From positions 744,001 through 808,000 of the forward strand of contig JAGTXO010000014.1 of assembly GCA_019448385.1 (NCBI GenBank): a stretch of DNA of 64,000 nucleotides, written 5' to 3'. Made by a program: the position numbers and the translations under genes. Below, piece by piece: positions 3,033 to 61,258 of this stretch. The notes below the pieces were generated by a model that saw only the letters and a program-made list of their open reading frames with translations, had not been told where the DNA came from and searched no databases. Numbering within the stretch: the stretch's first letter is position 1; every line of letters starts with the position of its first letter. Source of the stretch: Diacronema lutheri (lineage: Eukaryota > Haptophyta > Pavlovophyceae > Pavlovales > Pavlovaceae).

Positions 3033-3279
3033 CCGTCGGCGACTTCGCTCACGTGGCCGCTGGCGCCTCGTCGCGCCCCCTGCGCGGGCGCGCGCTGGCG
3101 CCCGCGCTGCCAACTCCGACCACCGGGCCGCCAATCGATGCGACTCGGCCGTGCCTAGGCTTGAAGTGAAGGTGTGGGATGGGCCGCGTGCGTGGCTCTC
3201 ACTCGTCAGCGCCAGTGGCAGCCATCCTTGTTAAGCAGCTCCCCGTGGCCCGACCTCGTGGAAGTCGGACGGCCGCAAG

Positions 3280-5171
3280 ATGGGGAAGATCCCAAAGAAG
3301 AAGTCGAAGCGGCTGCTCGTCAAGGACAAGCACAAGATCGCCAAGAAGGTGCGGCAGCACCACTCGAAGCAGCGGCGCGAGGCGAAGAAGAACCCGAACA
3401 AGTTCAAGCACAAGGACCCCGGCATCCCAAACTCGTGGCCCTTCAAGCAGGAGCTGCTTGCCGAGGTCGAGTCGGCTCGAGAGGAGGAGCGCGCGATGCA
3501 CGAGCGCGCGCGCGCACACAAGGAGGCGCTGCGGCAGCGCGCGCTCAACCAAAAGGCCGCACAGGCTTCAAAGGCCGCGCCATCAGCCAAGCAGCTGCGC
3601 GACGCGTCGGCCGCGTCCGCGCTCGACAGCGCGCACGCGCTACTCCTCTGCGTCGACGCGCGCGATCCGCCGGCGAGCCGGTGCGCGCAGCTCGAGCAGC
3701 GCTTCACGGCGGGCCCAAGCGGTCCGAGCTCGCTCGTCGTCCTCGTCACGCACGCGCACCTCGTCCCCGCCGCCAACCTCGCGGCGTGGCTTTGCGCGCT
3801 GTGCGCGGACGGCGTCGCGGCCGCACCCTTCTCGACGACCGCGGACGACGCGGCCGCGCCGCGCGCCGCGGCGTCGAGCCGGCAAAAGGCGCTGCACGCG
3901 ATCGGCGCGACTGAGGTCTGCGAGCTCCTCGCGCGCATCGCGCTCGAGCCTGGCCTCGTGCCTCGCGCGCCGGGTCAACCCCTGCTTGTTGCGCTCGCTG
4001 GGGCGCCTGGCACGGCCGCCGCCGACGCGCTGCGCAGCCTGCAGCTGCGGCTCAAGAAGAAGGGGCCGGCACGCGGGCACGTCGAACTGCTCGGCGACGC
4101 CGTCATCCTCGAGCCGCGCCTCGCCGACGGCGCGCTGCCCGCAGGCAACCCAACGGGCGGTATCATTTCATTTGGCATGCGTCCTTCACGCAAAGCCACC
4201 GACCTCGTTCAGCTCGCGGCGGTGCGGCGCCGGCCCGCGCGCAGCCGCTGATGGCTTGATCTCACCGCGCGCGCCTGTCGTGCCCTCTCGCCTGTGCCGC
4301 ACGCCGGGCCCCACTTGCGCCTCCCGTCTCCAAATGCTCACCTATGCTCACCCCCCACCCCCCCCAAACACTTTCTTACTCACCCTGCTACCACCCGCGG
4401 GCGCACGGTCCTGCCCTTGACCAGGCCCTGCTCGATCGCTGCGCCGACCGCGCCGCGCTCGTCCGCCACTACTCGCTCCCGCGCTTCGAGTCCGCCGCCG
4501 ACTTCCTCACGCACCTCGCGCACGCGCTCCAGCTTCCGCCCGCCGAAGGCTCGGACGTCCCAGACCCCGCGCTCGCCGCGCTCGCCTTCCTCGAGCAATG
4601 GCGGCTTGGGCGCGTTCCCTTTTGCAGCAGGCCGCCCGCAGACGCGGGCGCGGGCGCGGGCGGGCGTGACGCGCGCGCGGCCGCGCCGCGCGCCGTCGAG
4701 CTCGCGCTCCAAGTCTACTCGGACCAGGTGCGCGCCGCCAAGCGGAGCCGGACAGGGGGCCGCCGGACACGGGGCCCCCGGACAGGGGCCGCCGGACAGA
4801 GCGCCGCCGCGCTCGCGCGCCGCGCCAGCGGCGGCGCGGCACCGTTGCCGCCGCCGGTTGTGCTTCCCACGGCGCCGTCTTATATACGGCGAGCACGCCG
4901 CGCGCCGCCCTCGCGCGCGCCGCGCGCACGTCCGCAGGTGAACGGCGAGCTCGCGGCGGCTTTTGCCCTGGCGGGCGCAAAAAGCATGGCTGCCGCCGAG
5001 GGCGTGCACCTCGTGCTTGAGCCGAGCGCGTCGGGGTTGGAGAGCGAGCTCGTGAGCCGGCTGGGCGATGCGCCCGCGCGCAACGTGGCGGCCCGCGGCC
5101 GGGCGCGCGCCGGCGCGCGCGGCAGCGGCGAGGCTCAGGCGGGCGACACCAACGCTACGAGTCCGGAGTGA
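3280..5171 (+). CDS. GNL3/nucleostemin-like nucleolar protein with degenerate GTPase domain
   Basis: Exons are about 3280-4140, 4425-4727 and 4938-5171. The N-terminus is a typical GN3L/Grn1 basic domain (KKKSKRLLVKDKHKIAKKV, then HHSKQRREAKKNPNKF and DPGIPNSWPFKQELL). Next come a VDARDPPASRC block, the circular-permutation hallmark of this family, and in exon 2 the conserved C-terminal part (RHYSLPRFESAADFLTHLA, then FLEQWRLGRVPF). In ordinary members the NKxD guanine motif and the GxPNVGKS P-loop sit between them. Here these read VTHAHLVP and ALAGAPGTAAA, so GTP binding is probably lost. Family members act in the nucleolus in 60S ribosome biogenesis and cell-cycle control. The last intron is 210 bp, in frame and stop-free. 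Exact ends of the first intron are inferred from homology. Confidence 0.8.
4141..4424 (+). other. Probable GC-AG intron of the GNL3-like gene
   Basis: The best join in frame uses a GC donor (GCAGGC) after Leu-Pro and the acceptor TTGACCAG, giving LADGALP-ALLDRC, which lines up with the family pattern before the RxHYxLPxF block. It contains a C-rich tract around 4350-4375. A GT donor at about 4160 would break the frame with this acceptor. Confidence 0.5.
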
Positions 5172-5247
5172 TGGTCCGGCGGTTGCACAACTGGACGCTT
5201 TCATTAGACGGATTGTAAAGTTCGATCGGACCGACCGGTCCAAGTCG

Positions 5248-8200
5248 ATGTCGGCACAATCGCGCGTCGCTCCGGCGGTTCACTCGGGGCTCGAGGATGA
5301 GCTCAACGAGCACGCACCGCCGCGAAAGTCTACCCGTCTGAACTTCTTCGACCCATCGACCACCGACCTGAAGCGTATCTTCTCGTTCCCATTCACATAC
5401 GGCGCGATAGGCACGTGCGACGAGCGCGATCCGGTTCCCCAAGGCCCAGTCCGCCGTGTGGCCGCCAGCGAGTGCGTGGCCGGAGCTTTCGCGCTGATCG
5501 AGCACGGCGGTTATGTCGATGCATCAACACTGCGCAACAAAGCCACGGCATGCGAGGAGCAGAACGCCGTCGCGGTCATCGTGGTTGTGAAGCCATCCGA
5601 GTCGCATGCCGATCGCGCGATCACCGACTCCAGCGCGACGCTCGCGCGCGGTGCTGCCGGAGCGAGACAGCGTCCCGCGCTCGATCACCGTCTCAGCATC
5701 CCCGTCCTCTACATTGATCATGCGAGGGGCAACAAGCTCCTCACGCACCTGCGCTCCGAGAGGAAGGAGGCGGTCGCGTCGCTCGGGATCTTGTCCGCGC
5801 ACAACGGCGCGCGGGGCGCGGCAGCGCAGAAAGGCGGCGCGCGTGCGCCCGTTGGATGGTTCGGGCGCGCGGTGGAGTATGTAGCCAGCTCGCTTGCTCC
5901 TCTCAGCAGGCTCGGCACGGGTCCTTCACCGGCGGCCCTGCTCGCCACCATCATCAACCAGGCCGACGAGCGCATCACCGCGACCGAGCTCGCGCTCGCT
6001 CTCGACTTTCTGAACCGTTGGTGCTCCGAAGGCCTCGCGCTTCCAGCCGGCGAGGTCGTGCTCGCGCTCAACGCGCGCTCGGTAAACGCGACGCTCGGAG
6101 GTGATCCAGCGCTGCTCATCATCGCCGCGCGGTTCCAAAAGCTGCTGCCCGAGCTGACGAACCACGCTGACGTGAAAAGCAAAGACGTGCGCGCGTGGAG
6201 CGGCCAGATCGCACGCGCGGTATGGAACTGCCTCGAGTCAAGCGACTTCGCGCAGCTGCTCGCCGCTGCGCTCTGGGGCGCGCGCGCGCGCGAGTCGGCG
6301 GCCGCGCAGACGCTCCTGCCGGAACATGTCTTTGAGCTCGAGCGCTTCGTCGACGAGCACCCGTACGCGGTCGAGTGGCTCGGCGACGGTGTCTCGGCGT
6401 GCCTCGATGCGGGCACTGCGCGCGGGACGGAGAGCAAGCGCGCGGCTGTGCTGCTCTCGGCCGCGCTGTGGGCGCGCGCAGTGTGTTACTCTCGCGGGCC
6501 CGCTGGCGTTGGTTGGCCCGCCATGCCGCCGCTCGATGAGGACGACGTGGAGGTGTGGGCCAGTCAGATGCTGAAGAACGGTGTGCACTTCGACGTGGAG
6601 GGTGCATCACTCCTCCTCGAAGCGGTCGCGAGGCACGTCGCGCAGCCGACGCTCAACGCAATCGCGCTCTCGCTGCCGCAGTCGCTGTACTGCTTTTGCT
6701 ACGCCTCGAGCCGCTTTGTGCGTGATGCGAGCGAGCAGCTCGCCACGCAGCGGCTGCGCGATTTGGTGCTGAGCGCGGCGGCTGCGGGCGCACTCGACGG
6801 CGAAGCGCTCGCCGCCGCACTCGTCGCGGCTCAGCAACTCGGCCTCGGCGGGGCGGGCACAGAAGAGCTCGCGCGCCGCCTCGTCGAGCGCGCGAGCTCA
6901 CGGCGTCCGCGCGAGGAGAGGCTATCCTGCTTGTACGACATGCTCGATGCAATCGCGCGCTTACATGCGGCCGACGGCGCGCGTGCGCAGCTCCTGGACG
7001 TGCTGCTGCGTGAGAGCAGTGAGAGGGCCGCCTTCTTGTCCGTCGTGTCCATTATGCTCAACGTTGTGCAGCAAGTTGCGCGCACGGCCGGCCACCCGCT
7101 GTGCCTCGCGCACGCCAGCCCCTGGCTTGCACGCGTCGTGCACGACGCGCCGCGCCTCCATGGCAATGGCGCCAGCGCGGCGCCCGAAGGCAGCTTCGAC
7201 GATTGGTTCCAGTTCGCGTCTGCCGTGCTCGCGCTGATGCGCGACGGCCGCGTCGAGCTCCAGCGCGCCGAGCACGACGTCGTGCGAGCACTGCTTTACG
7301 AGGCGTGCGACGAGCACGTGCGCAGGCTTCGCCTCGACAGCTCGGACAACGCCGTCCGAGCGCGCCGTGCGGGCGCGCTGCTGCGCGAGCTGCTGCGCGC
7401 CGCGTCCGCATACGCGCTCACCGCGCCTGTTGCGGAGAGCTCGGCAGCCATGCGCACGCTCGCGCGCAACCTGCTCGACCTGCTCGCCCAGGTGGGCGCG
7501 CTCGCCGAGCTCGGTCACGCGCGCGCGCTCTCCGAGCTCGCGGCGGCCGTCGGCGCGGGCGTGCCTGATGATGCGCTGCACGCCGCGCTGTTCGCGGGCG
7601 TGGTCGAGCGCGTGGTCGCATTGCGGCGTGGCGAGCCGTGCAACGAGATCCTCTCCTTTGCCGCGCAGCTCTTGGATCCGCGTTCGATGGCTGTGCGGGG
7701 CAGCGCGGGCGCGACTGCGGGCGCGCGCGGCTTTGCGCGCGCCGTGCTCGAGCGTCACTGCGCGCAGCCGTGGTGGCCCGCCGATTTTGAAACAGCCGTG
7801 CTGCGCGTCGACCAGCGCGTGCTGGGCTGGCTGGGCAAGCTCGCGACCTTCGACCCGCCGCAGGCGTTCGTCGCACGATGGCGGCGGCTGCTCGACGCGG
7901 CAGCGGCGTGGAGCGGCGCGCTCTCCGCCCAGCGCGTCACGTTCGAGGACCTCGAGCGCATCCACGCGCGGCCGGCGTACGCCGAGCTGCAGAGGTGCGC
8001 GCGGAGCGCGGACGGCGCGCCGCTGCTGCCCGACGCGGACGCACTCCGCGCGCGCCTCGCGGAGATCGCGCACGCGCGCGACGAGCTCGTGCGCGAGTGC
8101 TCGCTCGGCGCGAGCGCGCCCGTCGGCACGATGACGCACGGCAGCGCGCTCACCGTCTGGACCATTCTCGACAGGTATGTCGTGCAGCTCCCCGACGCGC

Positions 8201-11200
8201 TTGCACGCACGGCGGCTCGGATGCGGGTGGACGCTGAGTGGTGGCGCGCCGTCACGTGGGCCGAGCTGGTCGCCGACGCGCACGCCGTGCGCGTCTGGCG
8301 GTGCGAGCACGAGCCGCAGCTCGCGGCGCTCGAGCACTTCGCGTCGCGCCAGAGCGCGCTCTTTCACGACCAGCTGCGGCTGCTGCGCGCGGATGAGCTG
8401 CGCGAGGACGAGGCGTGGGATGCGAGCGCCTTCTTCGAGGCCATCGACGCCGCGCTCGCCGCGCTTGCTCGGCTCGTCGAGCGCGACGGCGCGAGCTTTG
8501 CTGACGTGCGCGCATCCGCCGGCGCGGTCACGGCCGCGCGCGCCGAACGCGAGCTGCGCGTGATCGTCGAGTGGCCGCCGCTCGCGCGCTTCGCGGCCGG
8601 CGTGGACGAGTGCGTCGAGAACATGCGCACGGTGCTCGCGCTTCTCGACCTGCGTGCGCCGCTCGGCGCGCTCGTCAACTGCCTTGAGCAGTACGCCTTC
8701 TCGTGCGCAGCCGCCGAGGACCACGATTTCGCTTTCGTGCGCGCGCTGTCGGCACGCCTCGATGACGAGCGCGCGATGGCGTCAAGGCCAATGGCCGAGT
8801 GCCGCAACGACCTGCGCCGCGCGATGCAGCTGCTGCGCGGAGACTGCGCGGACGACGCTGGCGACGCTGGCGACGCGGTCGGCGCGGACTGCGAAGATGG
8901 CACGGCCGGTGCAGCCGACGCGTTCGACCCGGCTCGCGCGGAGAGCGCTCCAAGCGTTGCGGCCGCAGCCGACGGGGCAGCAGCCCACACCGATGGCAAC
9001 GATGCGCACCCCGACGATTCGCTGTGCTCCGACGCTGCGCTCGCGCGCGCGGCGCGCCACTTGGCGCTCTTCGCGGCGCTCTCGTCCGCGACCAACGTGT
9101 GGGACTTTGTGCGCGACAAGGGGTGGCACGGCAAGGAGGGCTTTGGCGAGCTCTTCCGCCTCGAGTACGCGAACGTGACCAACCTGCTGCAGGGTGAGGA
9201 CTACGAGACGACCGTGCTCAACCAGCTCGACCGAGCCGTCGAGTGCGTCGCGACGGCGATGCAGGCGCGCGAGCTGCCCTTCGAGCAGCTGATGCGCAGT
9301 CTGCTCTCTGCGCCCGTCGTGCGCGCGGGCGCGGCCGTCGGCTTCTCCGAGCTTGGCGAGGTGCAGGCCAACATCGTGCGCGTCCGCGCGTGGTTCACGC
9401 GCGGCCTGGGCGACGTCGAGGGCGTCTTCGACGAGATGAGCTCGGTCCTCGATCGGGGCGTCTGGGCCTTCTCGCGCGAGCAGGGCGGCTCGCGCGCTGA
9501 CGCGGCCGCGCTGTCGCTCGCGCTGCTGCGCGACGGGCACGATTCGCTGCGCGGCGCGCAGCTTGATGATTTTGTGCGCATGCTCTGCTTTGTGCAGCGC
9601 GATGACAAGGGTGCTGGCTTTCGGATCGACGAGGTGCTCAGCGAGTACAACGCGTACGGCAAGGCGCTCGACGCGATGCGCGAGCTCGTCGCGCTCGGCC
9701 ACCCGCTCCTCGACGGCGGGTCGATTGAACGACGCGTGCTGCGCGTGCCGCGCGACGCTGCCGCGGGCTGGGCGGATGAGCTCAGGCGCGAGATGAGCAC
9801 GTGGCTCTCCGACCTGGCGCACGTGCGCGCGCAACATTCGCTGCTGCTCCTCCTCTCGACCGCCGAGGCGCGCAGCTTGCACGGCCGCCTCGCCGCGGCC
9901 ACGACCACCGCAACGGGCGCCGCCGCGTTCGGCGCAGCCGCGGCGCACATGCTGCCGCGGCTCGTTGGCACGGTGGGTGGCTCGAGCGCGAGGACGCGCG
10001 ATGCCATTGCGGCGTTCGCGCGGCAATACGCGCGCGCCCATCCGCTCAGCACTTCAACGGCGTGGCCGGCGCCGGTCGGCAGCTTCCTGAGCGCGCTGCG
10101 TCGCGCGCTCGGCTCGCCTCCGCTCCCGCTGCGCGCCGGCGCGCTCACCGCGTGCGCCGGCCTCGTGGGCGTGTACGTGCACGTGCTCGACAACGCACCA
10201 CCAGAGCTACTGCTTCGGCTGCTCGTGCACATCTTCGCTGGCCGCGCGCCCGAGGCCTTCGAGATGCTCGTCTGCTCGAAGGACACGCGCCCGAGCGACC
10301 TGCACCTCTTCTTCCAGCGCGTGCGCGTGCATACGCGCCGCACGTATGCGCTCGTGCACGTCGATGCGCTCTCGAGCGCGTGCCAGGACGACGTCACGGC
10401 GTTCCTGCTCGACCGCGTGCGCGAAAGCGAGGAGCTGCGGCTGCACTGCGTCGTCGACGGCCCGTCGATGCTCCAGCCCGCGCCGTGGATCCGCATCACG
10501 CACTGGAACGTCGCCAGCGCCGCGTCTGCGCTCCCGGCGCGTCAGGCCGCTGCGCGGCAGTACACGGCAGCCATCGTTGACGGCACGTGCATCCGGAGCG
10601 TGCGCGTGTTTGCGTCGAGCGTGCCCGGCGCGGGCAAGACGCATCTCGCTCGCAAGCAGCTGCAGCTGCTGCGCGCGGACACGCTGGTCGTGTGCCTGTC
10701 GGAGGCGTTTGATGCCGCGGACGTGTCGCGCCTGCTCGCAGCGCACGAGGCGCGGCAGCACAGCGTGACCGACACGCGCTCGGCCGTCTTCTTCCAAGTG
10801 CAGATGGGCCACTTTGCGACGCTCGACGGCCTCGCAGCCGCGCTCAGGCCCATCGCCGCCTTCCTGTACGACCTGCTCGTGCTGCGGCTTGTCGGCGGTG
10901 GCGGCTCGGAACCGCCGTTCGCCCTGCCGTCCGATGCGGGCTGGGACGTCTTCGTCGAGGTGCCGTCGCTCGTCGGGCACGCGGCCGACGCGGCGGGCGT
11001 CAACCAGGCCGCGTGGTACGCCGAGCACGCGCTGCCCCTCCTCTGGCTCGTCGGTACGATCGTCGAGCCGCCGGCTGAGTTCGAGGTGGACGAGCGTGTG
11101 CGGCGCGTGTGCAAGTACTTGCGCGCCTACTCGGACGGCACGATCAACCGCAAGTTTGGCGACGGCGCGCCGGCGTCCAAGCATGTGCTGCTGCTCCTCG

Positions 11201-14200
11201 ATGTCTCGGGCAGCATGCAGGGCGAAAAGCTGGATGCGGCCGTGGACAACATGCTCGCCATCTTTGACGGGCACATGCGGGCGGGCGATCGTCTCAGCCT
11301 CCTCGTCTTCGACCATGCGGTGAGAAACGTGCTGTCCGCGGTGGACGACCTGGGCGCTGGCACGCGCGCGGCATTGGGCGGCGCACGCAACCTGTGCCAA
11401 GGGGGCGGTACAGACATGTACGCTGCCATTAGCGCAGCCGCCGACCTTGCGCTCGCCAATCCGACCGACGGCGAATCGTGGATCATCTGCCTCACCGACG
11501 GCGAGTCCATCGGCGACGTGAACGCAGCGACCACGCGCTTGCAGCGCATGGAGCGGCTGCACCTCGCCATCATCGGCGTCGCGCTGGCCGCACACCTTGT
11601 CCCGAGGATGACGGCACTGTGCACGCCACGTGCCGACAGCAAGGGGCAATTCATCGCGGCGGGCGAGTCTGCACACGCCCTTGGCGCCGCGTTTGCCACA
11701 GCCGTGTCGCTGCTGCCCGTCTCGCAAACGTTCGACCTCGACCCTCGGCTCGCGGACAGCGAGTGCCGCGCGTGGCTCGCGCGCTACATGCCCGAGCATG
11801 TGCGTGCGCCAGTCAAGGGCCTGCTGCTGCAGACATTCTGGGTCAAGTACCTCCACAGGCGCGTGCTCGCGCTCGACGAGGTACGCTCATTCGCCCTCGC
11901 TCCGCGCGTGCAGCGCGCGCGTGCGACGAGCGTCACGGCGTTGCCTCGCAACTGCGTCGGCTTGGCGCGCGCGTGCCCAGCGTGTGACCACGCGCGCGGC
12001 GCATGCCCACGCGCGCGCCGTACGCGCACCGCGCCGCCTCTGCCAGTCGGTGGAGTTCAACTACAACCGCGAGCACGAGCAGTTGGGCAGCACTTTGATG
12101 GAGGTGATGCTCTTCGAGGTGGACAGCGCGCTGCGCGAGGGGCAGGAGCGCTCGTGGCGCTCAGAGGCGCATCGGCAGCTCATCTACGACTTTTCGCACC
12201 CTGACGGACCCAAGTTTGCCATCTTCGCGACCTCGCCCGAGCTGATCGATGCCGAGTCGCGCGCGCGCCTCTCGTCCCTCGGCTTCGCGCTGCCGAGCGC
12301 CGCCGAGCTCGCTACGCGCGATTGCCTCGACGCAAGCCTCGCGCGCGCACTCTCGCTTCAGCTCGACGAGCGCGGCCGGCTCGGCTGCATCGACGAGTTT
12401 GGGTTTGTGCTCACGCTCGACTTTGCGGTCAAGCTGCTGCACATTCACGAGCGCGTCGCGTGCGGTGTGCCGTGCGTGATGGAGGGCGAGACGGGCGTGT
12501 CCAAGACGGCGCTCACGCGCATGTACGCGCTGCTGCTCACCGCGAGCTGCCGCGAGCTCGCGCGCACAGCCGCGCGCACCGAGCTTGGCCAGGTCGACAG
12601 CGCGCTCTCCATGCGCTGGCCGGGCCTCTGCTTGGAAAATATGCCCAGCGGCGCGCCGTTGGAATGCGCGGTATGCGCCGCCGAGATGCTGCTCGGCATG
12701 GCCGAGCGACTCGCTTCGCCTCGCCGCGCGGCGCCGCCGGAGCTGCTCGCGGCCGCGCGCGCGGAGCTCGACGCGCTGCGCGCGCCGCTTGGCGAGGCGG
12801 AAGGTTCGCAGTCGAGCGGCGAAATGACCGTGCTGGACGGCCGCGCCCTGGAGGCCACGCGCTCGCTTCTTGCCTTCTTGCGCGAGGCTGCGGTGATCGA
12901 GTGCTTCTTTGCGATCAACGTGCACGCCGCGCTCACGCCCGCCGACATCCGCGTGCAGCTGCAGCCGGCGCGCGACGCTGCGCGCGCTCTGCGCACCGTG
13001 CGCGCCGAGCGCTCGCCGCCCGTCGTCGTCTTCCTCGACGAGGTGAACACGTCGAGCTGCATGGGCGTCTTCAAGGCGCTGGTGCTCGACCGCAGCCTCG
13101 ACGGCGAGCGTCTGGAGGACAACATCGTCGTCATCGCCGCGTGCAACCCCAAGCGCACGCTCGCGATCGGCTCGGCGGGCGTGCTGCGGCAGGACGATTT
13201 GGGGCGCGACTGGGCGCTCGGCCATTACCAGGTCAGCGCGCTGCCCGGCTCGCTCGATGCGATCAAGTGGCGATACGGCGCGCTTGGCGAGGAGCAGGAG
13301 CGTGACTTTGTCGCTTGCCGGCTCGAGCAGGAGCTGACGCGTGCGGCGCGCGGCCGCGGTGCGCGCGCAGCCGCGGGCGCTGGCGTGGGCGCAGCCGCGG
13401 GCGCAGGCGCGCATGGCGGCGGTGAGGGCGGCGCGCACATGGCGAGCCTCGTGTGCGCGTGCATGCGGCTGATGCGCGCATTCTCCGAGGAGCACCTGCG
13501 CGAGCGGATCTGGTTGGCATGCCCGCGCCTCACGCGCGCCGTGGTCGCCGCGGAGGCCGCCGAGCGCGCCAAGACGGCCGTCTCGCTGCGCGACGTGCAG
13601 CGGGTGCTCGTCTTCCGCCGTTTCTTTGCAGCCGAGTCCGGCGAGCTGTGCGCAGCGCGGCCGGACGCGGCGCGGCGCGCGCTGCTGCTCGCGCTCGCGT
13701 GTGTCTTCTACGTGCGCCTCGACCGACCGTTCCGCAAGCGACTGCTCGACACGTTGCGCGAGCAGCCGGCCGAGCAGCTGGAGCACCTCACGCTCGACGT
13801 CGCGCTTGCCGACGCGATGGAGCGCGTGCTGTCAAACTCGGACCTGCCGCGCGGCATCGCGCGCACGGAGGGCCTGATGGAGAACTGCTTCATGGCGCTC
13901 GTCTGCACGCTCGCGCGCGTGCCGCTGATGATCGTCGGCCCACCCGGTTCGTCCAAGACGCTGTCGGTCGGCGTCGTCGAGACCAACGCGCGCGGCGAGG
14001 AGTCGCGCCGCGCCTTCTTCCGCCCCTTCGAGCGAGTGGAGGTCTTCTCGTACCAGTGCTCGCGCCGCTCGACAAGCTCTGACATCGAGACGGTCTTCCG
14101 ACGTGCGATCGAGCGCCAGGGCGCGAATCGCGGCCGCGCGCGCTGCGTTGTCTTCATGGACGAGGCCGGGCTGCCCGACGAGCGGCGCGAGTCGCTTAAG

Positions 14201-16982
14201 GTCCTGCACTACTACCTCGAGGGCGCGAGCCCGGCGCGCGACACGCCCGATGTCTCCTTCATCGCGATCACGAACCACGTGCTCGACGCGGCCAAGAGCA
14301 ACCGATGCGCGTGCCTGCTGCGTGGCGAGCCCGATTCGGACGACCTCGAGCGTATCGCGCGCGGTTGCCTGCTTGAGCTGGGCAAGGCCAGCGCGGCCGT
14401 CAGCTCGGTCGCCAGCGCGGACGCCGCCGAGCCGCTCGTCGGCCCGCTCGGCGCGGCGGGCGCGCCGATGCTCTCGCAGCCGGTCGCCGGGCTGCCCGTC
14501 GAGTGCGGCACGCTCACGATCGGCGAGTTTGTGCGACGGCTGTGCGCCGCGTATACGAGTCTGCTCAAGGACAAGGAGAGGAACGGCTTCGACTGGTTTG
14601 AGCGCGCGTTCGGGCTGTGCGCGCGCGCGCGCTTGCCGCGCGCCGACCCGCGCCGCGCTTCTGCCTCCGCGCGGTGCGCGCGCCCGGCGCTGCGCCCATG
14701 GCGCCCACGCGGCCAGCCCCGCGCGCGCGTGCGCGCGCGCGCCCGACACGCGCCGCGCGCCAGGCGCGATTTCATCCACACGCTCCGGATGCTGCGTCGC
14801 CGGTCGGAGGCGGGCCCGACGGGCTTTCGCACGTCGCGAGACGCGCTCCTCGTCGCGCTCTCGCGCAACTTTGGCGGCGTCTCGCCGGAGCGCTTCCGCG
14901 CGGTCGTGAGCGCGTTCGTCACGCAGCTCTTCGGCGGGCGCGTCGCGCGCGAGTGGGTGCCATCGCTGCTGCCGGACGTGGTGCGCGTGCTCGACGAGGC
15001 GATTGCCGACTGCGCCGTCGGCGAGGACGCGCCGCGCTATGTCCTGCTCATCGACGAGTCGGCGGACGAGTCGGCGCTGCGGCTGCCGCGCTGGCATGGC
15101 CTCGCGACGCCCGCGCGCACCACCGCGCTCGTCGCCGGCTCGGCTGCCGCGCAGGTGCTCAAGCTGTCGGACTTTTCTGACGATATGGAACGCAGGCAGG
15201 TGAGCCTCATCTCCGCCGTCAAGCTCGGCGCCGCGCAGGGCGCGTACGTCGAGCTGTCCGGCAGCGAGCCGGTGCACGAGTCGCTGTACGCGCTCTTCAA
15301 CCAGCAGTTCAAGGAGATCGTCTCCAAGGACGGGACGGTCAGGCGGTATGCGAACATCGCCGTCGGCTCGTACTCCAAGCCGTGCCTCGTGAGCGCCTCG
15401 TTCCGATGCGCGCTCCACCTGCCCGTCGCGCAGCTCGCGGACGCGCCCGCGGCCTTCCTCAACCGATTTGAGAAGCATCGGCTGCGCGTGGTCGACGTGC
15501 TGCGCGCGCGGCTCGCGCGCGTGCCGCCCGGCCTCGCGGCGGCGATGCTCGACGCGCGACGCACCGCGACCGCCTTCGCGGAAGAGCTCGCAGCTCCCGG
15601 CTGGCTGGGCGGGTTGGTCGAGCAGCAGACGGTCGACTCGGTCATCCTCGACATGCTGCCGCGCCTCGATGGGCTCGCGCCGCCGATCGCGCCGACTGCG
15701 CCGGTGCTCGATGAGGCGTTGAGTGGCTTCGCCTCGGCTGCGAGCGATGGCGGCGCGCTGCTCCTCTGCGCGGAGGCGGTCGACGGCGCGCGCGCGCATC
15801 TCACGCTGCGCTCGAGCGCCGCGCTCGACGAGCTCGCGCTCGACGGGCTCGCGTCGGCCGCGTCGTGGGGCGGGCATGCGCTCGCGGGCGAGTGGAGGCG
15901 CCTGACGGCAGCCGGCGCGCCAGCTCAGGAGTGGCGAGCGCTCGTTCAGTGCGCGATCGCGACCGCGGACGCCGATGCGCGCGCGGGCGGCGCCGATGCC
16001 GACCGCGCGCGCGACGAGCCGCGTGGCGGGATCGACGGCGGCGGCGAGGCGGAGGAGGTGCCGCTCGCCGCGCTCAGCGTCGCGCGCGCCGCGCTCCGCC
16101 ACGTTCTTGAGCGCGAGGCGTGCGAGCGTCTGCTGCTGCTCGCGCCGCCCGAGGCGCTGCTCAGCGCGCGCCCAGCGCTGCCGCCGACGCTCGTGCGCGC
16201 CTACTTTGAAAGTCAGGAGCATTTCTCGCTGCCGCGGCTCGTTGAGCGCGCGCGCGAGGCCGGCGGGCTCCACGCCGTGCACGCGCGCACCACGCCCGCC
16301 GTGCATCGCCTGCGCGACCGACGCGCGAGCGGCGCGGCGGACGCGCGGCCGGCGTGCGGCGCGCTCGGCCTCCCCGCCGACGTGGCCGTCGCGTGCCTCG
16401 CGCACTTCCCGTCGGAGGAGGCGTTTCGCGAGGTCGTGCGCGAGTGGGCGAGCGCGCCCGGCGCGCCGTGTCTGCTGCTCGTTGCCGATCTCGCCGCCAC
16501 GAGCCCCGAGCGCGTCACGTTTGCGCGCGTCGTCGCCGAACAGTGCCTCGTCGATGCGCGCGCGAGCTCGCACGGACGCCATGCTGACGACGGCCATGCT
16601 GAAGACGGGCGCAATGCTGACGAAGGGCCAACGCGGGATGAGATCGGCGGTGGCGGCGGCGGCGCGCGCTCGGCTTCCGAGCGCACGCTCGTGCTGCTGC
16701 TCCATGCGCCCGCCTCGCGGCTTGGCGCGCGCGCGCAGCGCCACCCGGCGCTCTTCCATGCCGGCTGGACGCACTGCGCGCTTGATGGCGTCGGCGGCGA
16801 GCCCGACGCGCTCGATGCGCGCGTCGACGGCGCGAGCGCAGACGCGCGCGATGCGCGCGAGTGGTGTGCGCTGGCGTGCGACTTGCGCCGTGAATGGGAC
16901 GTGACGCCATGTCTGCGCGCGTGCGCGGGCGCCGCCCTGCGCGTCGCGTCGAAACGCGTGCGCGTGCGCGCGCCGGCAGCTG

Positions 16983-17017
<35 letters not shown>

Positions 17018-20000
17018 ACGCGTCCGGTGGAGCTCTCGCTGCCTGAGCGCCAGCGGCTGGTCGAGTCGTTCATGCGACAAGAGGTGCCAAGCATGGGCGG
17101 TGCGAGCGTGTGCGAGCTCGTGTGCAGGCGCTTCGCGCGCGAGTGGGACCACGACAGCATCGAGCTCGAGGTGACGACGGCCGCCGAGCGCCTCGCGAGC
17201 GGCCAGTTGGGCGTCGCGCTCGGCGAGGAGGTGGGCAGCGCGCTCGAGGCGACATTCTGCAACTTTTGCGCATGGCTGCTCCACCAGCTCTCCGCCGACG
17301 GCTCGCTCCTTGCGCACGAGCGGCAAGGCCGCGCGCCCGACGGCACGGGCGCTTGCTCGGTGGAGCTGTTGCGCGAGCTGCTCGACTTGCTGCGCATGCC
17401 GCCACTCGCTGAGCTTCGCCTGCGCGTGCACTCGTACGCGCTGCCGCCGCCGCACGCGGTCGTGGCGAGCGCCACACTTGCGGCCGACGGCGTGCACGTG
17501 CCGCTCTTCGCGATTGTGCGCGCCGCGCTCGACCTGGCCGTGGACGAGGCGATCGGCGCGGTCGCTCCGCGTGCGGATCCGGACGGTGCGCTGTCCGGCG
17601 CGCGCGATGCGTGGCCGCAGCCGGCGGCGATCGACGCGGAGGCGCGCCGCGCGTCCGACGCGGCGGGGGAGCACGACGCGACGCGCACGCTCGTGCGCTG
17701 GGCGTGCGCGCGCGCGGCATGCGACGCGCCGTTCTGGGAGACGTACGTGCGCCAGCTCGTCGCGCACACCGCGGTGCTCGAGCCCATCCCGGCGCGCGCG
17801 CTCTGCGCGGTCATCGACGTGCTCGTGCGCTGCCTCGAGGCGCGGCTGCCCGCCGCGCCCGCCCGCTCGCTCGTGGCGCTCCACGCCGCCGAGCGCGCGG
17901 CGAGGGCCGAGCTGCTCGCGCTCGTCGCCGTGCTCGCGCCGATCGCCCAGTGCTGCCCCGACCTGGGCGAGGCGTGGGCGCGGCGCGCGCACGGCGGCAG
18001 CGCGGAGGCGCGCGCGGTCGATGTGGCCGTGCGCGCCCTCCGCGCGTCGCTCGACGCGATCGTCGCGCGCGCCGAGCCGGCCGGCGAGGCGGAGGTGCCG
18101 AGCCGCGAGTGCACCGCGAAGCTGCGCTCGTGGTCGGCCGATTGCGCGCGCCTATTGCGCGAGCTGCCGGCGCTGCTTCCGCCGGCCGAGCGCTCCGCCG
18201 CCTCGGGCGCCGCGCACGTCGGCGGGCGTGCGCGGGCCGGCGCCGAACGTGACGGACGCGGCGGTGGCGGAGCCAGCGGCGTGTGCTCGCAGCTCGACGC
18301 GCTCGCCACGCTCGCGCGCGTGTGCGCGCACGGCACGCCCGCGCACGCGCGCGAGGCTGTCGCGAGGCTCGAGGCACGCGGCGCGCGCAACCACTCGCTC
18401 AAGGCTGCGCTCGACGAGGTGTCGGAGCTGCCCGCGCCGGCCAAAGCAACCGCGCGCGACGCGCTTGTGCTCTGGTACCTCGCGCCGTGGCGCCTCGCTC
18501 ACCGGCCGCCAACGGCAGGTGAGGACGTGCGGTGCGCGCTCGCGGCCACCGGCGAGCCGCGCGCGCTGGGGCGCGCCGAGACCGCCGCGGGCAGCGCGTC
18601 GGACGCGGGCGGCATCTTAGCGGAAGGCGGGTGGCACAGCAGCGTGGAGCATGGGTGGCGCATTGCGCTCGTCGGCCGCGCGCTCGAGCCGCTCGACGAG
18701 GACGAGGGTGGCTGGCGGCCGCTCGGGCTGAGCGTGGACGCCGTGAACTGCGCCGAGGCGCTGCTGGCCGAGACGCCCGATGCACCGCGCACGCTTTCGG
18801 TTGGTTACGTGCCAGACTGGCTGCAAGTACCGCCAACCGACGGCGGAGTACCGCCAACCGACGGCGAAGTTCCGCCAACCGACGGCGGAGTACCGCCAAC
18901 CGACGGCGGAGTTCCGCCAACCGACGGCGGAGTACCGCCAACCGACGGCGAAGTTCCGCCAACCGACGGTGGGTGCGAGCAGCCATGGCCGCTCGCGGAC
19001 GCTGTCTTCTGCGCGCTGCTCAAACGGCTGCTCGTGCGGTATGGCCGGCAGCCGCTCGACCAGCTCGTCTCGCTCCTCGCCCTGCGTCCGGCAAGGCCGC
19101 GCGCGACCGAGTCGCCCGCCGTGGGCGGCGGCGACGCGGCACTGGAAGGCGCGGGCGCTAGCGCGGTGGGCGTGGACGCTGGCGGCGCGAGCGGCGTATT
19201 TGACGCTGTCTACACCGCTGCTGCCGAGATCTTCTTCCTCAGCCGCTTTGCACGCGAAGCAGCCATGCGCGCGTCTGTGGGCGCAGGCGGCGCCGCTGCG
19301 GACGGCGGCGCGACGGCAGGACCGAGCGCCGGCGTGCGGCGCGAGCCCGTGGCGCGGCTGAGTGGCACGGCGTGGGTGGGTGCGCGCGACGCCGCCTCGC
19401 GTCTCCTCGCGGCTCGGCCCGAGCTGCAGCGCTTCGCGCTCACACTCATTCTCCGCTCGCACGGCCAAGCGGCCGTCGAGGCTGCGCTCACGAGCCGCGA
19501 CGCCTTCGGCTGCGGCAGCGCGTGGGCGGACGAGTGGCGGAAGCAGCTCCTCCCGCCCGGCGAGGCGAACGTCGACGCGCTCGCACGCGCCGCGCGAATG
19601 GCGGCGCTCAACGCGCGCATCGTCGAGCTGCACGCCGCCGAGGACGAGAAGGCGCTCACACTGCGCTGCTGCCCCGCGTGCGGGCGCGTGACGCAGCGCA
19701 CAGAAGGGTGTAACACGATGGAGTGCGGGCGCGACGCGCACACGGACGCCCCCATCCATCCGACCGTCGGTTGCGGCGCGCGTTACGACTGGCAGTTCGC
19801 GCGGCCGTACACCAAGGACACGCACGCGCTCGACGCGCTGCGCGCCGAGGTGGAGCGCGCGTACGAGCGGGCAGCCGCATCCGAGCGCTTCTGGCGCGAG
19901 CTCGCCGACTGGCGGCTGCCACACGCCTTCGTGGCGGTGATGGACGCGGGCGGGCCGGAAGATGCGCTGCCCACCGCCGCGCTCGCCTCGGCGCTCGAGC

Positions 20001-22726
20001 GGGCGGTGGACGGCGGTGGCGCGCGCGCGCCCGGCGCTGCCGTCGCCCTGCGATTTCTCGGCGTGCGCCGCGAGCTGCGCGCGCTCCGTGCGCTCCCCGC
20101 ACTCGTGCGGCTTTACCTGTGGCTTGACAGCCATTTTGCAAGCCTGCTCACGCGCGCGCGCGCGGCTGAGCTCACGCTGGGCGAGGTGTTTGGCGAGGCG
20201 CAGCTGCGCTCGCGGTTCAGCGCGAGCGAGGCGCGCGACGCACGCGCGCTGTGGGCGCGCGCGCGCGACGGCTTTAACGAGCACGTGCGTGCCGAGGCAG
20301 GGCGGCTACGGCACGGCGCGTGCGGCGCGGTTAACGAGCTGACTGAGCTCACTGACGACACGCGGCTGTTGCACGTGCTCTCGGACGGCGCCACGCTCGC
20401 CGACGGCAACGACGCGATCCTCGCCGTCATCGCCGCGCTCGTCGCGCGGCACAACGACGCCATCGACGCGATCACGCGCGCGAGCCCGTCGACCGCGCGC
20501 GCGCCGTTGGCCGTGCACCCCGCGGCCGTGAGCTGGCGCACGCTGCTGTCCGGCGACCTGTTGCCCCACGAGCTGGGCGGCGCGCGCGCGGGCGCGTCGA
20601 CCGCCTTCGAGCGCGACGTTGAGCAGTTTTGGCGACCGCGCTCGTGCGACTTTGACCTCGACGCGCTGAACGCGCACATCGCCGATCAGTTCGTGGTCCG
20701 GTGCCGCGCGATCGGCGATCCGGACACGCAGCTGCGCAGCCGCTTCCGCTTCCGCGCCGATGCGAAGGGCGAGGGCGTCGGCGCGAGCGTCGGCGCGGAC
20801 GAGGCCGCCGCGCTCGTCGCTGCAGTCGAGGACGCGTGCGCGGCCGGCGCGTGCGCGTGCGGCATGCCGGTGTTCACCCCCGAGGGCTTGGCGCGCGAGG
20901 CGACGGCGCGGCGGCCGGCGCTGCACGCCGTGCTGCACGCCGCGCCGTACTCGCAGCTGCGCGCGCTCCTGCACGGCGCCAAGATGCTTGCCGACATCTT
21001 TGCGGAGGTCGCTGTCGGGCTGGTGCGCGCGCCGCCGCACGCGCGGCGCGCGGCGGACGGCGGCGGCAGCGGCGCGGCGGGCGGCGCGGTCGGCGGCGCG
21101 GTCAGCGGCGCGGCCGGCGGTGCGGGCGGCGGCGAGGGCTGGGCGGCAGCACCGGACCGCTGGACGACGCGCTCGATCCTCGAGCGCTCTGCCGCTGCGG
21201 GCGGCGGAGGCGGCGCAGGCGGCGGGACTCCTGGTGCGTGCGCACGCGCTGTGCGTGCGCCCACCGACCTGCTATCGATGCTCGAGCTCGCGCAGCTCGA
21301 CGGCGCGGCGGCCGAGCTCGTGCTCTCGCTCAGGGCGCCGGCCGAGCTGTGTGCGTTCGCGAGATTCCTCGAGGCGCAGCTGGTGTCGCGCGCGTACGAT
21401 TTTGCCCACCTGCCACTCGGCGTCAAGCAGCCGCTGCCCGCGCCAGTCGAGGCGCACATGCGCACGCAGAGGCTGCGTGCCGCACGGCACCGCGCGGTGC
21501 GCGGCGCAGCGGAGGAAGTTGAGGCGGCGCTCGGGTTCGCCGAGCGCGATTATGCTGGCGCCTCGGACCTGACTCGCCCGCTCGGGGCCTACTTGCTGAG
21601 CGTCTGCGGGCTCGAGCGCGATGGCGAGGCCATCGCGAGGCTCGTGCCTGCCGGCGCGCGCCTGCAGCACGTGGTTGCTCTGCGCGTGCAACTGCGCGAG
21701 CTCGCGCGGCACGCTGCGGGCTTCGAAGACGACGCACGTGGCGCGCCCGCGGCGGCGGACGACGCGGGCGCGCAGCTCGCGTGGGCATGGGCGCCCAGCG
21801 TCCTCGACCCGGACAGGGCGCGCGCCGAGCCGTCCGCCGCGCAGGGCGCGCGCGGCGCGCCGCGCGCGCGCGGAGGGCGGCTCTGCCTCTGGTTTGAAGC
21901 GATGGCGGTGCACACAGGCGGTGGATGGTCTCAGGACGCAGCTCGGCGGGAGGCCGCCATCGTGATCTCGCGCGAATGGCGCGCCAGGTGGCGCTCACGC
22001 GCCGCCACGCGCGCCGAGGCCGCCGCGACGTCCGCGGCCTCGGCCGCGGACGGAGTGCGCGGCGCGCTTGCCCTCGCGACCGCCTCACCGGCCGCGGACG
22101 GCGAGTTCAATGCGGCCGCGCCTGCCGTCGGCGAGGCGGCGGAGCTGGCGTGGGTGCATGTCGCAGGCATCGACGGCGCGACATCCACGCGGCCCGCGTT
22201 GGGTACAACCGATGCTTTCCGGCTGGCCACAACCGATGGCGCCGGAAAGCAGCTCGGCCTGCTGATCGCCTTGTGGCCAGCCTTGCGACTGCGCGCGTGG
22301 CCCGCGATCGCGTCGCTTCGCGAACGAGCCGAGCGTTGCGCAGCGCCGCCCATCGTGCTCGCGTTGGTGGTGCTTGCTGCCGCCGCAATCTGCGCGCCGA
22401 TCGACCTGCGCGATGCCGTCGCTGTGGACGTTCGCTCGCTGTGCGTTGCAGCTGCTGTGTGCGCGACAGCCATGGCGGTCGCGGCCGCAATCCATGCTTG
22501 GGCGCGCGACACGCCGCTGACAGTGGCTGCGTGGGTGGCAAGGCACGCTCTTCCGCTCGATCTTGCCGCGCGCCTTCGCACCGTGATCGGCGTGCGCACG
22601 CTGAGGGATGTGCTCCTCTTGGACGAGGCGGACGTGGCGACGCTCGCGTTGCTCCCGCTCGACCGGCGAAAGTGGGAAACGGCCGTGGCCGAGCTGCGCA
22701 GATCCAGCTTGGCTCGGCAGAGGTGA
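5248..22726 (+). CDS. Giant RNF213/mysterin-like AAA+ protein with VWA, PA-like, IBR-like, TM and SAM-like parts
   Basis: Exons 5248-11880, 12047-14616 and 14764-22726 give about 5,721 residues (human RNF213: 5,207). Both joins are homology-supported: ALDE-SVEFNY, and FGL-RDFIHTL, matching the RNF213 FGLRDYYSLIK block. Order: a PA-like fold (about residues 75-170); a long helical stalk with the WDFVRDKGW...YANVTN block; a P-loop PGAGKT (about 1793); a VWA domain with complete MIDAS (DVSGS about 1985, GGTD, TDGES); AAA unit GETGVSKT (about 2358) with FLDEVN; AAA unit GPPGSSKT (about 2841) with FMDEAG; the RNF213 block ending FLNRFEKHRL; a zinc-finger-like CPAC...EGCNTMECG...CGARYDW (about 4700); the RNF213 C-terminal region; two TM helices (about 5595-5650); and a SAM-like tail. 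RNF213 proteins are ubiquitin ligases active at membranes and lipid droplets and against intracellular bacteria. The start is the first ATG after an upstream in-frame stretch without homology. Confidence 0.85.
16985..17014 (+). repeat. GACGCC hexanucleotide run in coding sequence
   Basis: Five GACGCC units encode an Asp-Ala run in the linker region of the RNF213-like protein. It is probably a slippage-prone, disordered linker. Confidence 0.8.
18827..18973 (+). repeat. Coding minisatellite, seven 21-bp units (VPPTDGG/VPPTDGE)
   Basis: Seven head-to-tail 21-bp units encode VPPTDG followed by G or E inside the RNF213-like protein, before the zinc-finger region. Units differ only at a few positions (GTA/GTT start, GGA/GAA end). 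The array is stop-free on both strands in several frames, which creates spurious ORFs. Copy number is likely polymorphic; the protein segment is Pro/Asp/Gly-rich and probably unstructured. Confidence 0.92.
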
Positions 22727-23017: not shown

Positions 23018-25045
23018 TCACTTCTTCGGGTCCTCGTCCTTGTCCTTGCTGCCCTCCTGCGCCTGCTGCTCGCCCACGTTGCGGTACATCGCCTCCCCAA
23101 TCTTCATCTGCGACTTCTCCAGCGCCTCCACCTTGGCCTTGAGCTCATCGGGCTCAACGTTGGCCTGCGCGGCGGCGCGGCGGCGCGGCGGCGCGGCGCG
23201 GCGCGGCGGCGCGTGAGCGGCGGGCTTTCGGTCCGGCTGCCCCTGCGCGCCGGCCCGGCTGCCCCTGCGCGCCGCGCGCGCGCGCCAAGGGCGCGGCGGC
23301 ACGCTGCGCGCGGCGCGGCGGCGCACGTCCTCGGCCGCCTTCTTCAACGCGGCGATGTCGGCGTTGATGGCGTCGACGTCCTCCTGCCCGAGCTTGTCCT
23401 TGTGCTCCATCAGGTTCTTCTCCGTCTGGTAGATGGACGTGTCCGCGCGGTTCTTGAGCTCGACACGCTCCTTGCGCTTGGCGTCCTCGCCCGCGTGCCG
23501 CTCGGCGTCCTGCACCATCTGCTCGATGTCCTTGTCGGAGAGGCCGCCGGACGAGCGGATCTGGATGCGCTGCTCCTTGCCCGTGCCCTTGTCGCGCGCG
23601 CTCACGTTGACTATGCCGTTCGCGTCGATGTCGAAGGTGACCTCGATCTGAGGCATGCCGCGCGGCGACGGCGGGATGCCGACGAGGTCGAACTGGCCGA
23701 GCATCTTGTTGTCGCCGGCCATCTCGCGCTCGCCCTGCAGCACCTTGATGCCGACCTGCGTCTGGTTGTCGGCGGCGGTCGAGAAGGTCTGCGACTTCTT
23801 CGTCGGGATCGTCGTGTTGCGCGGGATGAGCTTGGTCATCACGCCGCCGAGCGTCTCGATGCCGAGCGAGAGCGGCGTCACGTCGAGGAGGAGGATGTCC
23901 TTGACGTCGCCGCGCAGCACGCCGCCCTGGATCGCGGCGCCGATCGCGACGACCTCGTCGGGGTTGACGCCCTTGTACGGCTCGCGCCCAAAGAACTTGC
24001 CGACGATCTCCTGCACCTTTGGCATGCGCGTCATCCCGCCGACGAGGATCACCTCGTTGACGTCCTTGGTCGAGACGCCCGCGTCCTTGAGGCACGCCTT
24101 GCACGGCGGGATCGTCCGCTCGACGAGGTCGTTGGTGAGCATCTCGAGCTTAGCGCGCGTGAGCTTCATGTTGAAGTGCTTTGGCCCCGTTTGGTCCGCG
24201 GTGATGAAGGGCAAGTTGATGTCCGTCTGCGTCGTGGACGAGAGCTCGCACTTTGCGCGCTCGCCCGCCTCGCGCAGCCGCTGGAGGGCGAGCGTGTCCT
24301 TGGAGAGGTCGATGCCCTGCTCCTTCTTGAACTCGGCGCAGAGGAACGAAGTCATCAAGTTGTCAAAGTCCTCGCCACCGAGGTGCGTGTCGCCGTTCGT
24401 CGCCTTCACCTCGAAGACGCCGCCCGAGATCTCGAGCACCGACACGTCGAAGGTGCCGCCGCCCAGGTCGTACACGGTGATGAGCTTGTTGTCGCCCTTG
24501 TCCATGCCGTACGCGAGCGCCGCGGCGGTCGGCTCGTTGATAATGCGCAGCACGTCGAGCCCTGCGATCTTGCCCGCGTCCTTGGTCGCCTGGCGCTGTG
24601 AGTCGTTGAAGTAGGCGGGGACGGTCACGACCGCCTGCGAGACGGGCCGGCCGAGGTAGGCCTCGGCAGTCTCCTTCATCTTGACGAGCACGAAGGCGCC
24701 GATCTGCGAGGGCGAGTAGTCTTTGCCCGCCGCGTGCATCCACGCGTCGCCGTTGCTCGCTTTGACGATCTTGTACGGCACCGTCGCAATGTCCTTCTGC
24801 GTGATCGGATCGTCGTACCGCCGGCCGATCAGCCGCTTCGACGCGAAGAGCGTGTTGGCCGCGTTCGTCACCGCTTGCCGCTTGGCGGGCATGCCGACGA
24901 GGCGCTGCCCGTCATCTGAAAACGCGACGATCGACGGCGTCGTGCGCGCGCCTTCCGCGTTCTCGATCACGCGCGCCGTCCCACCCTCCATCACCGCCAC
25001 GCACGAGTTGGTCGTACCCAGGTCAATGCCTATCACGTCGCCCAT
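23018..25045 (-). CDS. Mitochondrial-type Hsp70 chaperone (DnaK/mortalin)
   Basis: ATP-dependent chaperone of the DnaK branch. It begins [20 protein letters not shown] and has the conserved phosphate-loop and connect motifs ([34 protein letters not shown]). The substrate-binding domain carries the DnaK/SSC1 features [14 protein letters not shown] and [10 protein letters not shown]. The tail ends acidic-basic (KDKDEDPKK) without EEVD (cytosol) or KDEL/HDEL (ER), so mitochondria are the likely site. A 162-bp in-frame intron (23165-23326) splits AAED and [11 protein letters not shown]. The start at 25045 lies two codons after a splice-acceptor-like CAG, so an upstream exon encoding the transit peptide is likely. 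A basic, acid-poor frame at about 25118-25460 on this strand is the best candidate, not proven. Mature length is about 621 aa, normal for the family. Confidence 0.93.
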
Positions 25046-25051
25046 CGAGCT

Positions 25052-25084
25052 GCGCGCGCGCGCGCGGGCGCGCGCGCGCGCGCG
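25052..25084. repeat. Alternating GC tract next to the Hsp70 start
   Basis: An almost uninterrupted (GC)n run with one GGG break lies directly upstream of the Hsp70 coding start, within its presumed first intron. Such alternating tracts can adopt Z-DNA; a similar run lies in the second PKG intron (about 2060-2090). Confidence 0.8.
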
Positions 25085-25515
25085 GGATGGGGCGGACGTG
25101 GGAGCCGAGCGAGCGCGTCAGGCGGCGGCGCACGTCCAGCAGGCGCGCGCGCGTGGCAGGCTCGAGCAGCCGGCGGCAGCGGCGGCGGATGCGGCGGCGT
25201 CGTCGCACGCGCGCGCGCGCGCGCACCTCAGCGCGCGCGACTGCTGCCGCGCCGCGCGCATCGCGCGCATCGCGCGCGGCGTCGCCTGGCGCGCGCGGGC
25301 GCGCGTGGCGCGCGCGTGGCCGCGGTGCGCGGCGCGTGAGCGGCGAACTTCGGGCGCGTGCGTCGCGAGCGGCCGGCCGGCCCCGACAGCCGAACGCGCG
25401 CCGCGCGCGCGCACCCGCGTGCATCGGAGCGCTGCGTGCTGCAGCATCGCGTCCCCGTGCAGGACGGGGCGGAGGGCAACAAACACGTGCTTGTTCGACC
25501 GCGTCTGGGCCAGAA

Positions 25516-44224: not shown

Positions 44225-44626
44225 CGTGAGGCCAGGCCGTGGGGCCGGCAAGGCAGGGCCCGGCCGCCGGCCGCGGCCGATGCGCTAGGCTAAGCCGCCC
44301 TTGGCGCGTGGAACGCACAAAGCGCGTGCCCTTAGGGTCGAACACCACGCGGCGCGTGCCACGTGCACCGCGCCCACAGCGCTCCACTCCACTCCACTCC
44401 ACTCCACTCCACTCCACTCCGTCCTCCTCTGTGACTGGTTTTCCGTCGCGCCATTGCTCTCGCGTCCCATTGCGCGCGCCCCATACGCGACTCGCGCGTC
44501 CGTCTAGCCGCGCGTACAGCGCACCTGGCCACGCCCGCGCGAGCTCGCGAGCCTGGCGACGGGCGCCCGCGCCAAGCGCTTCGTGGCGGGTAGCGGCGCT
44601 TTGCGCTGCTCCCTCCGGCGCGCGCC
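44225..44626. other. Upstream region of exportin-7 with ACTCC microsatellite
   Basis: No gene recognised in about 400 bp. It holds the pentanucleotide array at 44382-44420 and presumably the 3' UTR of the coiled-coil gene and the XPO7 promoter. Confidence 0.55.
44382..44420 (+). repeat. (CTCCA)n microsatellite, about 8 units
   Basis: An uninterrupted 39-bp run of the pentamer CTCCA, about 200 bp upstream of the XPO7 start. On the complementary strand it is G-rich (TGGAG)n. Confidence 0.92.
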
Positions 44627-50952: not shown

Positions 50953-51565
50953 GGCCGCGGGTGACGAAACACAATGCGGAATTGCCGAATTGGGCAGCGC
51001 CACCCAGCAAGCACCATGGAGTTGCCAGCGAGACGGCGTTGCGCTCCATCTCACCCTGCATATTGCTTATGCCAACGATCGACCCGCTGAGCAGCCCTGA
51101 TTTGGCGTGCTTGCGTGGGTCGCCCGAGCTCGTGCGCCTTCGCGCGTCGCAATGACCGCATCGCGTTGGGCCGTTTGCGCCGGCGAACGGCGCGAAAGGG
51201 CGTTCGACCTGCTGTAAAACATCACGTACGACGTTGTAAGTGCGCGCATGCCGCATCATGCGCGTCCCTGCATCTCTGCACTGAGTGTGGGCTTGCGAAC
51301 AGCGTGCACTCGCGGTCATGCTTACGCTGCCGTGCTTGGCGCACATTTTGATGGCCGCTCACCCTTGCCCGTCGAACTGCCCTGACACGCTCTCGCTTAC
51401 GCGCGCACTTCGCCGTGGTAGTCTCTTTCCCGGTCCACAAAGCGCGGACACGCGCGCCTATCTTCAATTGAGGGGTGGAGCGCACTCCACGCAGGTTCCC
51501 CTTCCGAAACAGTCGGCGTGTTCACCACGCTATCACACATACCAAACACGCTCACGCCCAGCGAC
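50953..51565. other. Divergent promoter region between UroD and the DUF3638 gene
   Basis: About 610 bp, noticeably lower in GC than the flanking genes. No coding sequence or repeat recognised. It must serve both divergent genes. Confidence 0.55.
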
Positions 51566-61017: not shown

Positions 61018-61258
61018 TCTCGCCAGCCATGCACGCGGTGAACAGCCAGGGTGCAGCGCCTATCGTTCGTGAAGTGCTGACCGCCGGCGCGCGGTCAGCA
61101 CTGGCAGCTGGTCAGGAGGCAGGCACGATTGAGTCGTCGTGAGCCGCCAGCGCCCCCACCCCGGAAAGGCTCTATTGTCCCTGTCCGCAACGCGGCGGAG
61201 GGTCCCGACCCCGTCGCACCCGCGGGCCGAGCACGCTGGGTTGTGACACATGCGCGGG

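Follow-up and report, generated by a model that had tools for sequence, protein, structure and literature searches.

The forward strand of the window (the whole 64,000-nucleotide stretch of DNA analysed here) carries at positions 5248 to 22726 a giant coding region, which raises the question of whether a single protein joins an RNF213-type series of AAA units to a VWA domain and, if so, what kind of machine such a chain would form. The spliced frame is open throughout from an ATG at 5248 to a stop at 22726 and holds 5,721 codons. Two long overlapping open reading frames underlie it (5056-12204 and 11612-22726), and they are joined via intron 1 (11881..12046, 166 nt, GT..AG). Exon 1 (5248..11880; aa 1-2211) encodes the N-terminus, the arm, the first P-loop AAA unit and the VWA domain, exon 2 (12047..14616; aa 2212-3068) encodes AAA3 and AAA4, and exon 3 (14764..22726; aa 3068-5721) includes the stop. 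A second intron is proposed at 14617..14763 (147 nt, GT..AG, in frame), with evidence weaker than that for intron 1; because its length is divisible by three and it is free of stops, its retention is conceivable, and the retained form would gain 49 residues. An in-frame 21-nt tandem repeat was observed in exon 3 of the same strand (18826..18969), with 6.9 copies of VPPTDGG-type units.

The length of open reading frames was dropped as coding evidence, since at 70-76% G+C the strand opposite to the giant gene also has long open frames, one of them of 1,439 aa at 13,832-18,151. Because open frames are uninformative at this composition, codon usage was scored. An independent codon table was built solely from six neighbour genes with Pfam support (2,957 codons), and it ranked the expected frame first among the six in 75 of 83 scoring windows. 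The eight missed ones begin at 6720, 15960, 18690, 18900, 19950, 21420, 21840 and 22260, those at 18690 and 18900 corresponding to the tandem repeat, and codon support was weak across the transmembrane (TM) tail. Around intron 1 the same table showed frame 0 fading between 11,880 and 11,940 and frame 1 rising at about 12,000-12,030, to become strong from about 12,030. Another table, the first to be used and self-trained on the giant gene, agreed on both sides of intron 1, yet in it the score of frame 0 was still mildly positive inside the intron, and within intron 2 neither frame was clear.

These observations bear on whether there are two adjacent genes instead, namely a VWA/P-loop protein ending at about 12.2 kb and an RNF213-type protein starting at about 12.1 kb. 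Such an arrangement would fit the different frame of exon 1, which is open as far as the stop codon at 12,202-12,204, the mildly positive frame 0 seen in the intron with the self-trained table, and the lack of any RNF213 homology detectable in exon 1 by itself. However, with the independent table the signal fades from 11,880, a position that has a GT donor but no stop, and is back by the phase-compatible AG acceptor at 12,046; moreover, no more than about 330 residues of the second protein could precede the AAA3 Walker B, and it would lack the AAA1 and AAA2 of its class. Since the coding signal fades at the donor and resumes near the acceptor, we consider two separate genes very improbable and, judging from the nucleotide sequence, we take the giant to be one spliced gene.

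The neighbourhood of the giant gene is ordinary eukaryotic. On the forward strand it includes a cyclic-nucleotide-dependent protein kinase with cNMP-binding domains and a kinase domain (500-2590), a GNL3L/Grn1-type protein (3235-4251) and an exportin-7-like protein (44594-47152), and on the reverse strand an HSP70 (23018-25117), a uroporphyrinogen decarboxylase (49756-51066) and a WD40 protein (61095-63323). A second giant coding region was found at 51422-60581 (+), with a 1,846-aa frame that matches DUF3638 (2.1e-51) and DUF3645 (7.5e-14); a 1,500-aa frame with no Pfam match at 1e-5 overlaps it upstream, and the two are perhaps one spliced gene.

The relationship of the AAA core to RNF213 (mysterin, an animal AAA+ E3 ligase that acts in defence) was assessed with a phmmer search of the PDB, in which the region 11984-22726 was read straight through and thus contained intron 2. 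All nine sequences found at E<=0.1 were RNF213, the best at 1.8e-40, and no Rea1 chain was among them. Against mouse RNF213 the i-Evalues were 8.6e-8 for AAA3 and 3.3e-23 for AAA4, and the AAA5/6 block (15155..15505, +), which contains the RNF213-like FLNRFEKHRL (aa 3299), matched RNF213 at E=0.012-0.013 in five of the six phmmer matches to the PDB at E<=10. In pairwise comparison, the identity to the displayed mouse RNF213 fragments was 36% for AAA4, 33% for AAA3 and 32% for AAA5/6. AAA3 has the Walker A GETGVSKT at 12485..12508 (aa 2358; K2364) and the Walker B Asp-Glu at 13037..13042 (E2543), and AAA4 has the Walker A GPPGSSKT at 13937..13960 (aa 2842; K2848) and the Walker B MDE at 14156..14164 (E2917), all on the forward strand, so that the catalytic Walker A/B pair of each unit is complete. 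According to the mouse numbers in an excerpt of PMC12075652, the spacing from Walker A to Walker B in AAA4 is nearly that of mouse RNF213 (69 versus 70), whereas in AAA3 it is 179 versus 62, which implies about 117 extra residues between the two motifs (12485-13042). PADLOC gave a weak match to TRIP13, another AAA family, in exon 2 (2.9e-4).

The kinship of AAA3-AAA6 to RNF213 is thus shown at the level of sequence. The RNF213-type chain proposed in the preliminary description was borne out by these PDB matches, and the motifs it had listed (PGAGKT, GETGVSKT, GPPGSSKT, FGLRDFIHTL and FLNRFEKHRL) were all found in the spliced frame, FGLRDFIHTL (aa 3066) being split by intron 2. Its C-terminal RNF213 blocks were not recovered, as the two displayed PDB alignments contained no RNF213 stretch past AAA5/6. 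The giant also resembles RNF213 in size (5,721 aa, the RNF213 chains in the PDB reaching 5,161-5,247 aa).

Upstream of this core, exon 1 contains the first P-loop, PGAGKT (10624..10641, +; aa 1793-1798), in a unit that would be the AAA2 of RNF213 by order in the chain only. Pfam AAA_5 covers this unit at E=0.0082 and 0.012, under the cut-off, phmmer gave no RNF213 match for it in the PDB, and AF2 folding of aa 1600-2211 without an alignment reached a pLDDT of 39.8; because of these three results, placing the VWA domain inside AAA2 is likewise a matter of order. In an excerpt of PMC7311170, the AAA2 of RNF213 is described as binding ATP and lacking a Walker B.

The VWA domain lies between the first P-loop and AAA3, in the same exon and frame as the former (11185..11709, +; approximately aa 1980-2154). 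From aa 1977-1980 onward, Pfam matched PF13519 at E=4.6e-13 (50.2 bits against a cut-off of 27), VWA_CoxE at 1e-9 and PF00092 at 6e-8; the only three NCBIfam families at the end of exon 1 all fell over the VWA stretch, the best with 1.5e-7 and far below its cut-off. The five MIDAS residues are present on the forward strand, in the DxSxS motif at 11200..11214 (D1985, S1987 and S1989), a threonine at 11410..11412 (T2055) and an aspartate at 11497..11499 (D2084), which agrees with the complete MIDAS that had been proposed at this place. They were invariant in 13 aligned sequences, that is, the giant and 12 VWA relatives from IMG/VR contigs (16 IMG/VR loci had been found) that were aligned for folding only, although this invariance is partly by construction, because patterns covering DxSxS or TDG had been used to collect the relatives, and T2055 alone is fully free of that choice.

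The fold of the segment at 11,170-11,700 had been named beforehand as the refuting test, and the fold predicted for it matched VWA structures. AF2 with the alignment gave a mean pLDDT of 57.8, with core blocks at about 77-82, and Foldseek found 257 matches to this model in the PDB at E<=0.001, the best at E=7e-8. The best 50 of these 257 had query TM scores of 0.39-0.55 and included ITIH1, TEM8, CMG2, archaeal ArnA and NorD; the 50 are titled as VWA or I-domain proteins or are proteins that bear such a domain. As an alignment made only of VWA sequences could lean AF2 towards a VWA fold, the Pfam matches are the independent evidence.

The preliminary description had called this domain an adhesion module, and an intracellular role in ligand binding looks likelier, because the VWA sits in an ATP/ubiquitin-type chain and a hydropathy scan (a coarse test, as opposed to a signal-peptide predictor) showed no strongly hydrophobic stretch near the N-terminus. 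We read the domain as an intracellular, midasin-like ligand grip. The comparison with midasin (Rea1, MDN1), made already in the preliminary description, is apt, because the MIDAS of midasin docks on a single-chain six-AAA ring, and in Rea1 the MIDAS and the ubiquitin-like domains that it binds share a metal ion (excerpts of PMC6624252 and, for the docking, PMC11603028). The giant would share with midasin the single-chain six-AAA class and a MIDAS that works with the ring, a count in which AAA3, AAA4 and the AAA5/6 block are matched to RNF213 and the P-loop unit of exon 1 has no RNF213 match. In contrast, midasin carries its MIDAS at the C-terminal tip of a long tail, whereas here the VWA lies between AAA units, at about aa 1980-2154 of 5,721.

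MoxR/VWA pairs such as NorQ-NorD also have an AAA+ unit working with a VWA, and the NorD VWA is among the fold matches described above. In those pairs the AAA and the VWA are on separate chains, whereas here the VWA and the RNF213-type AAA units are on one.

At the two ends of the protein the results were less uniform. The PA-like domain proposed for the N-terminus (5473..5739, +; aa 76-164) did match Pfam PF02225, at E=0.0035 and 7.1e-4, but the scores of 17.9 and 20.1 bits were below the curated cut-off of 23.9, and the sequence is only suggestive of such a domain. Two TM helices are predicted near the C-terminus on the forward strand, at 22352..22408 (aa 5598-5616; hydropathy 2.61) and 22436..22492 (aa 5626-5644; hydropathy 2.24), and the TM pair that had been proposed is likely, though the codon signal there is weak. 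The SAM-like C-terminus found no counterpart, with no Pfam family at E<=10 in a search whose filters drop most matches above about 0.1.

In RNF213, ATP binding in the AAA core activates the ligase, which transfers ubiquitin in a cysteine-dependent manner (PMC12075652, excerpt). The RZ finger of RNF213, and not its RING, is needed to ubiquitylate Salmonella and Listeria, and the residues of the human finger are C4505, H4509, C4516, C4525 and C4528 (PMC11549300, excerpt). Exact and loose patterns of the RZ finger and a loose RING pattern were absent from all 5,721 aa, no Pfam RING appeared at E<=1, and no E3 domain was above the cut-off in the Pfam scans. CBM20, a domain of human RNF213, had no match at E<=1 in a Pfam scan of exon 1.

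The densest Cys/His cluster of the protein was found instead at aa 4704-4744 (19670..19792, +), with the sequence CPACGRVTQRTEGCNTMECG...GCGARYDW and a RING2 (Rcat)-like spacing. Its C-x2-C-x9-C-x4-C arrangement (C4704/C4707/C4717/C4722) occurs only once in the protein and was reached in one of 2000 whole-protein shuffles; a stricter form with a C[NM]xMxC core, chosen after the motif had been seen, was reached in none of 2000. The spacing equals that of C418/C421/C431/C436 in parkin, whose cysteines include C418/C421/C436/C441 and the active C431 (PMC3305615, excerpt), so that C4717 (19709-19711, +) is the candidate catalytic residue, third in the motif as in the RBR E3 ligases parkin and HHARI. 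The motif lies 1,869 residues past the AAA4 Walker lysine, a distance comparable with the 1,726 residues to the catalytic cysteine in mouse RNF213.

Unlike the RBR ligases, the giant has no RING1 pattern, has a longer loop before the fifth cysteine, and carries D4743 in the place of parkin C446, which leaves the second zinc site incomplete. The RING1-IBR-RING2 trio is unmatched apart from the RING2-like spacing and an IBR_2 match at E=1.6, the best that Pfam gave on the motif, and phmmer against the PDB gave none. We infer that the motif may stand in for the RZ finger, and the giant seems to have a ubiquitin-handling active site unlike that of RNF213.

Two other readings were weighed against a ligase that uses a MIDAS as a grip, one for each of the added parts. 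The VWA could be a passive structural insert, or its metal site could serve only to close the ring without an external ligand, the protein then doing the usual work of RNF213. The AAA units of RNF213 do hold several inserts (PMC7311170, excerpt), and the lengthened Walker A-to-B stretch of AAA3 would be another instance here, but all five MIDAS residues are kept, which a passive insert would not need, and we regard this reading as unlikely. The cysteine motif could in turn form a zinc ribbon with a structural role, the protein being no ubiquitin ligase but a remodelling ATPase of the midasin kind that is anchored in a membrane. The TM pair, the missing RING and RZ patterns and the Pfam scans, with no E3 domain above the cut-off, would suit such an ATPase; an E3 cysteine is favoured by the GCNxM core, by the spacing and by the proximity to where RNF213 has its active site, and we find the ATPase doubtful, if somewhat less so than the passive insert.

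Relatives were sought in viral, bacterial and phage collections; among those searched, no protein with the same architecture was found and no RNF213 relative was recognised. When the whole giant was compared at E<=0.01, six bacterial loci matched only the AAA4 region; phages matched neither the AAA3/4 segment nor the VWA, and plasmids did not match the VWA. Searches of the open-licence PMC literature turned up no paper reporting an RNF213-type protein with a VWA, which is not proof of absence. The VWA/MIDAS in the chain, the probable C-terminal TM pair, the PA-like N-terminus and the RING2-like motif in place of the RING and RZ patterns set the giant apart from RNF213, and the AAA3-AAA6 match, the intact Walker motifs of AAA3 and AAA4 and the cysteine-rich centre behind AAA4 bring the two together.

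Read together in the simplest way, these features would describe a cysteine-relay ligase that is gated by ATP, tethered to a membrane and equipped with the MIDAS as its ligand grip. In it, ATP binding by AAA3 and AAA4 would switch the ring, as in RNF213, and the MIDAS, situated in the ring part of the chain, would grip a ligand by means of the metal it binds and an acidic residue of that ligand, in the way in which the MIDAS of midasin holds ubiquitin-like domains. It could thereby present the substrate or report its presence to the adjacent AAA units. C4717 would take ubiquitin from an E2 by transthiolation and then hand it on, while the C-terminal TM pair would hold the machine at a membrane for the marking of a target that is bound there or comes from a pathogen. 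That the giant is of the RNF213 type, a single-chain AAA+ ring in which AAA3 and AAA4 have complete Walker motifs and to which a C-terminal module for ubiquitin transfer is coupled, and that it works in this manner, we judge to be evenly poised between right and wrong. More tentatively, and with the balance against it, the RNF213 chain may be a modular chassis that in this lineage gained a MIDAS grip in its ring and swapped the RZ/RING for an RBR-type catalytic cysteine domain, giving a membrane-tethered, ATP-gated transthiolating E3 whose targets would be chosen through metal-dependent binding of ubiquitin-like or other acidic ligands by the VWA.

Two questions still surround RNF213, namely how it selects targets that differ so much from one another and how its ATPase governs the ligase, and a natural variant with a VWA grip and a different candidate catalytic cysteine module would separate the role of the ring from that of the E3 centre. 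It would also give RNF213 a mechanistic link to midasin, the other AAA+ machine built as a single chain with a MIDAS, and, if the DNA is that of a haptophyte, an RNF213-type machine would exist in an alga, which lacks the interferon system of vertebrates. The VWA within the motor core and the seemingly different active site suggest that the parts of this molecular machine can be exchanged when it is rebuilt.
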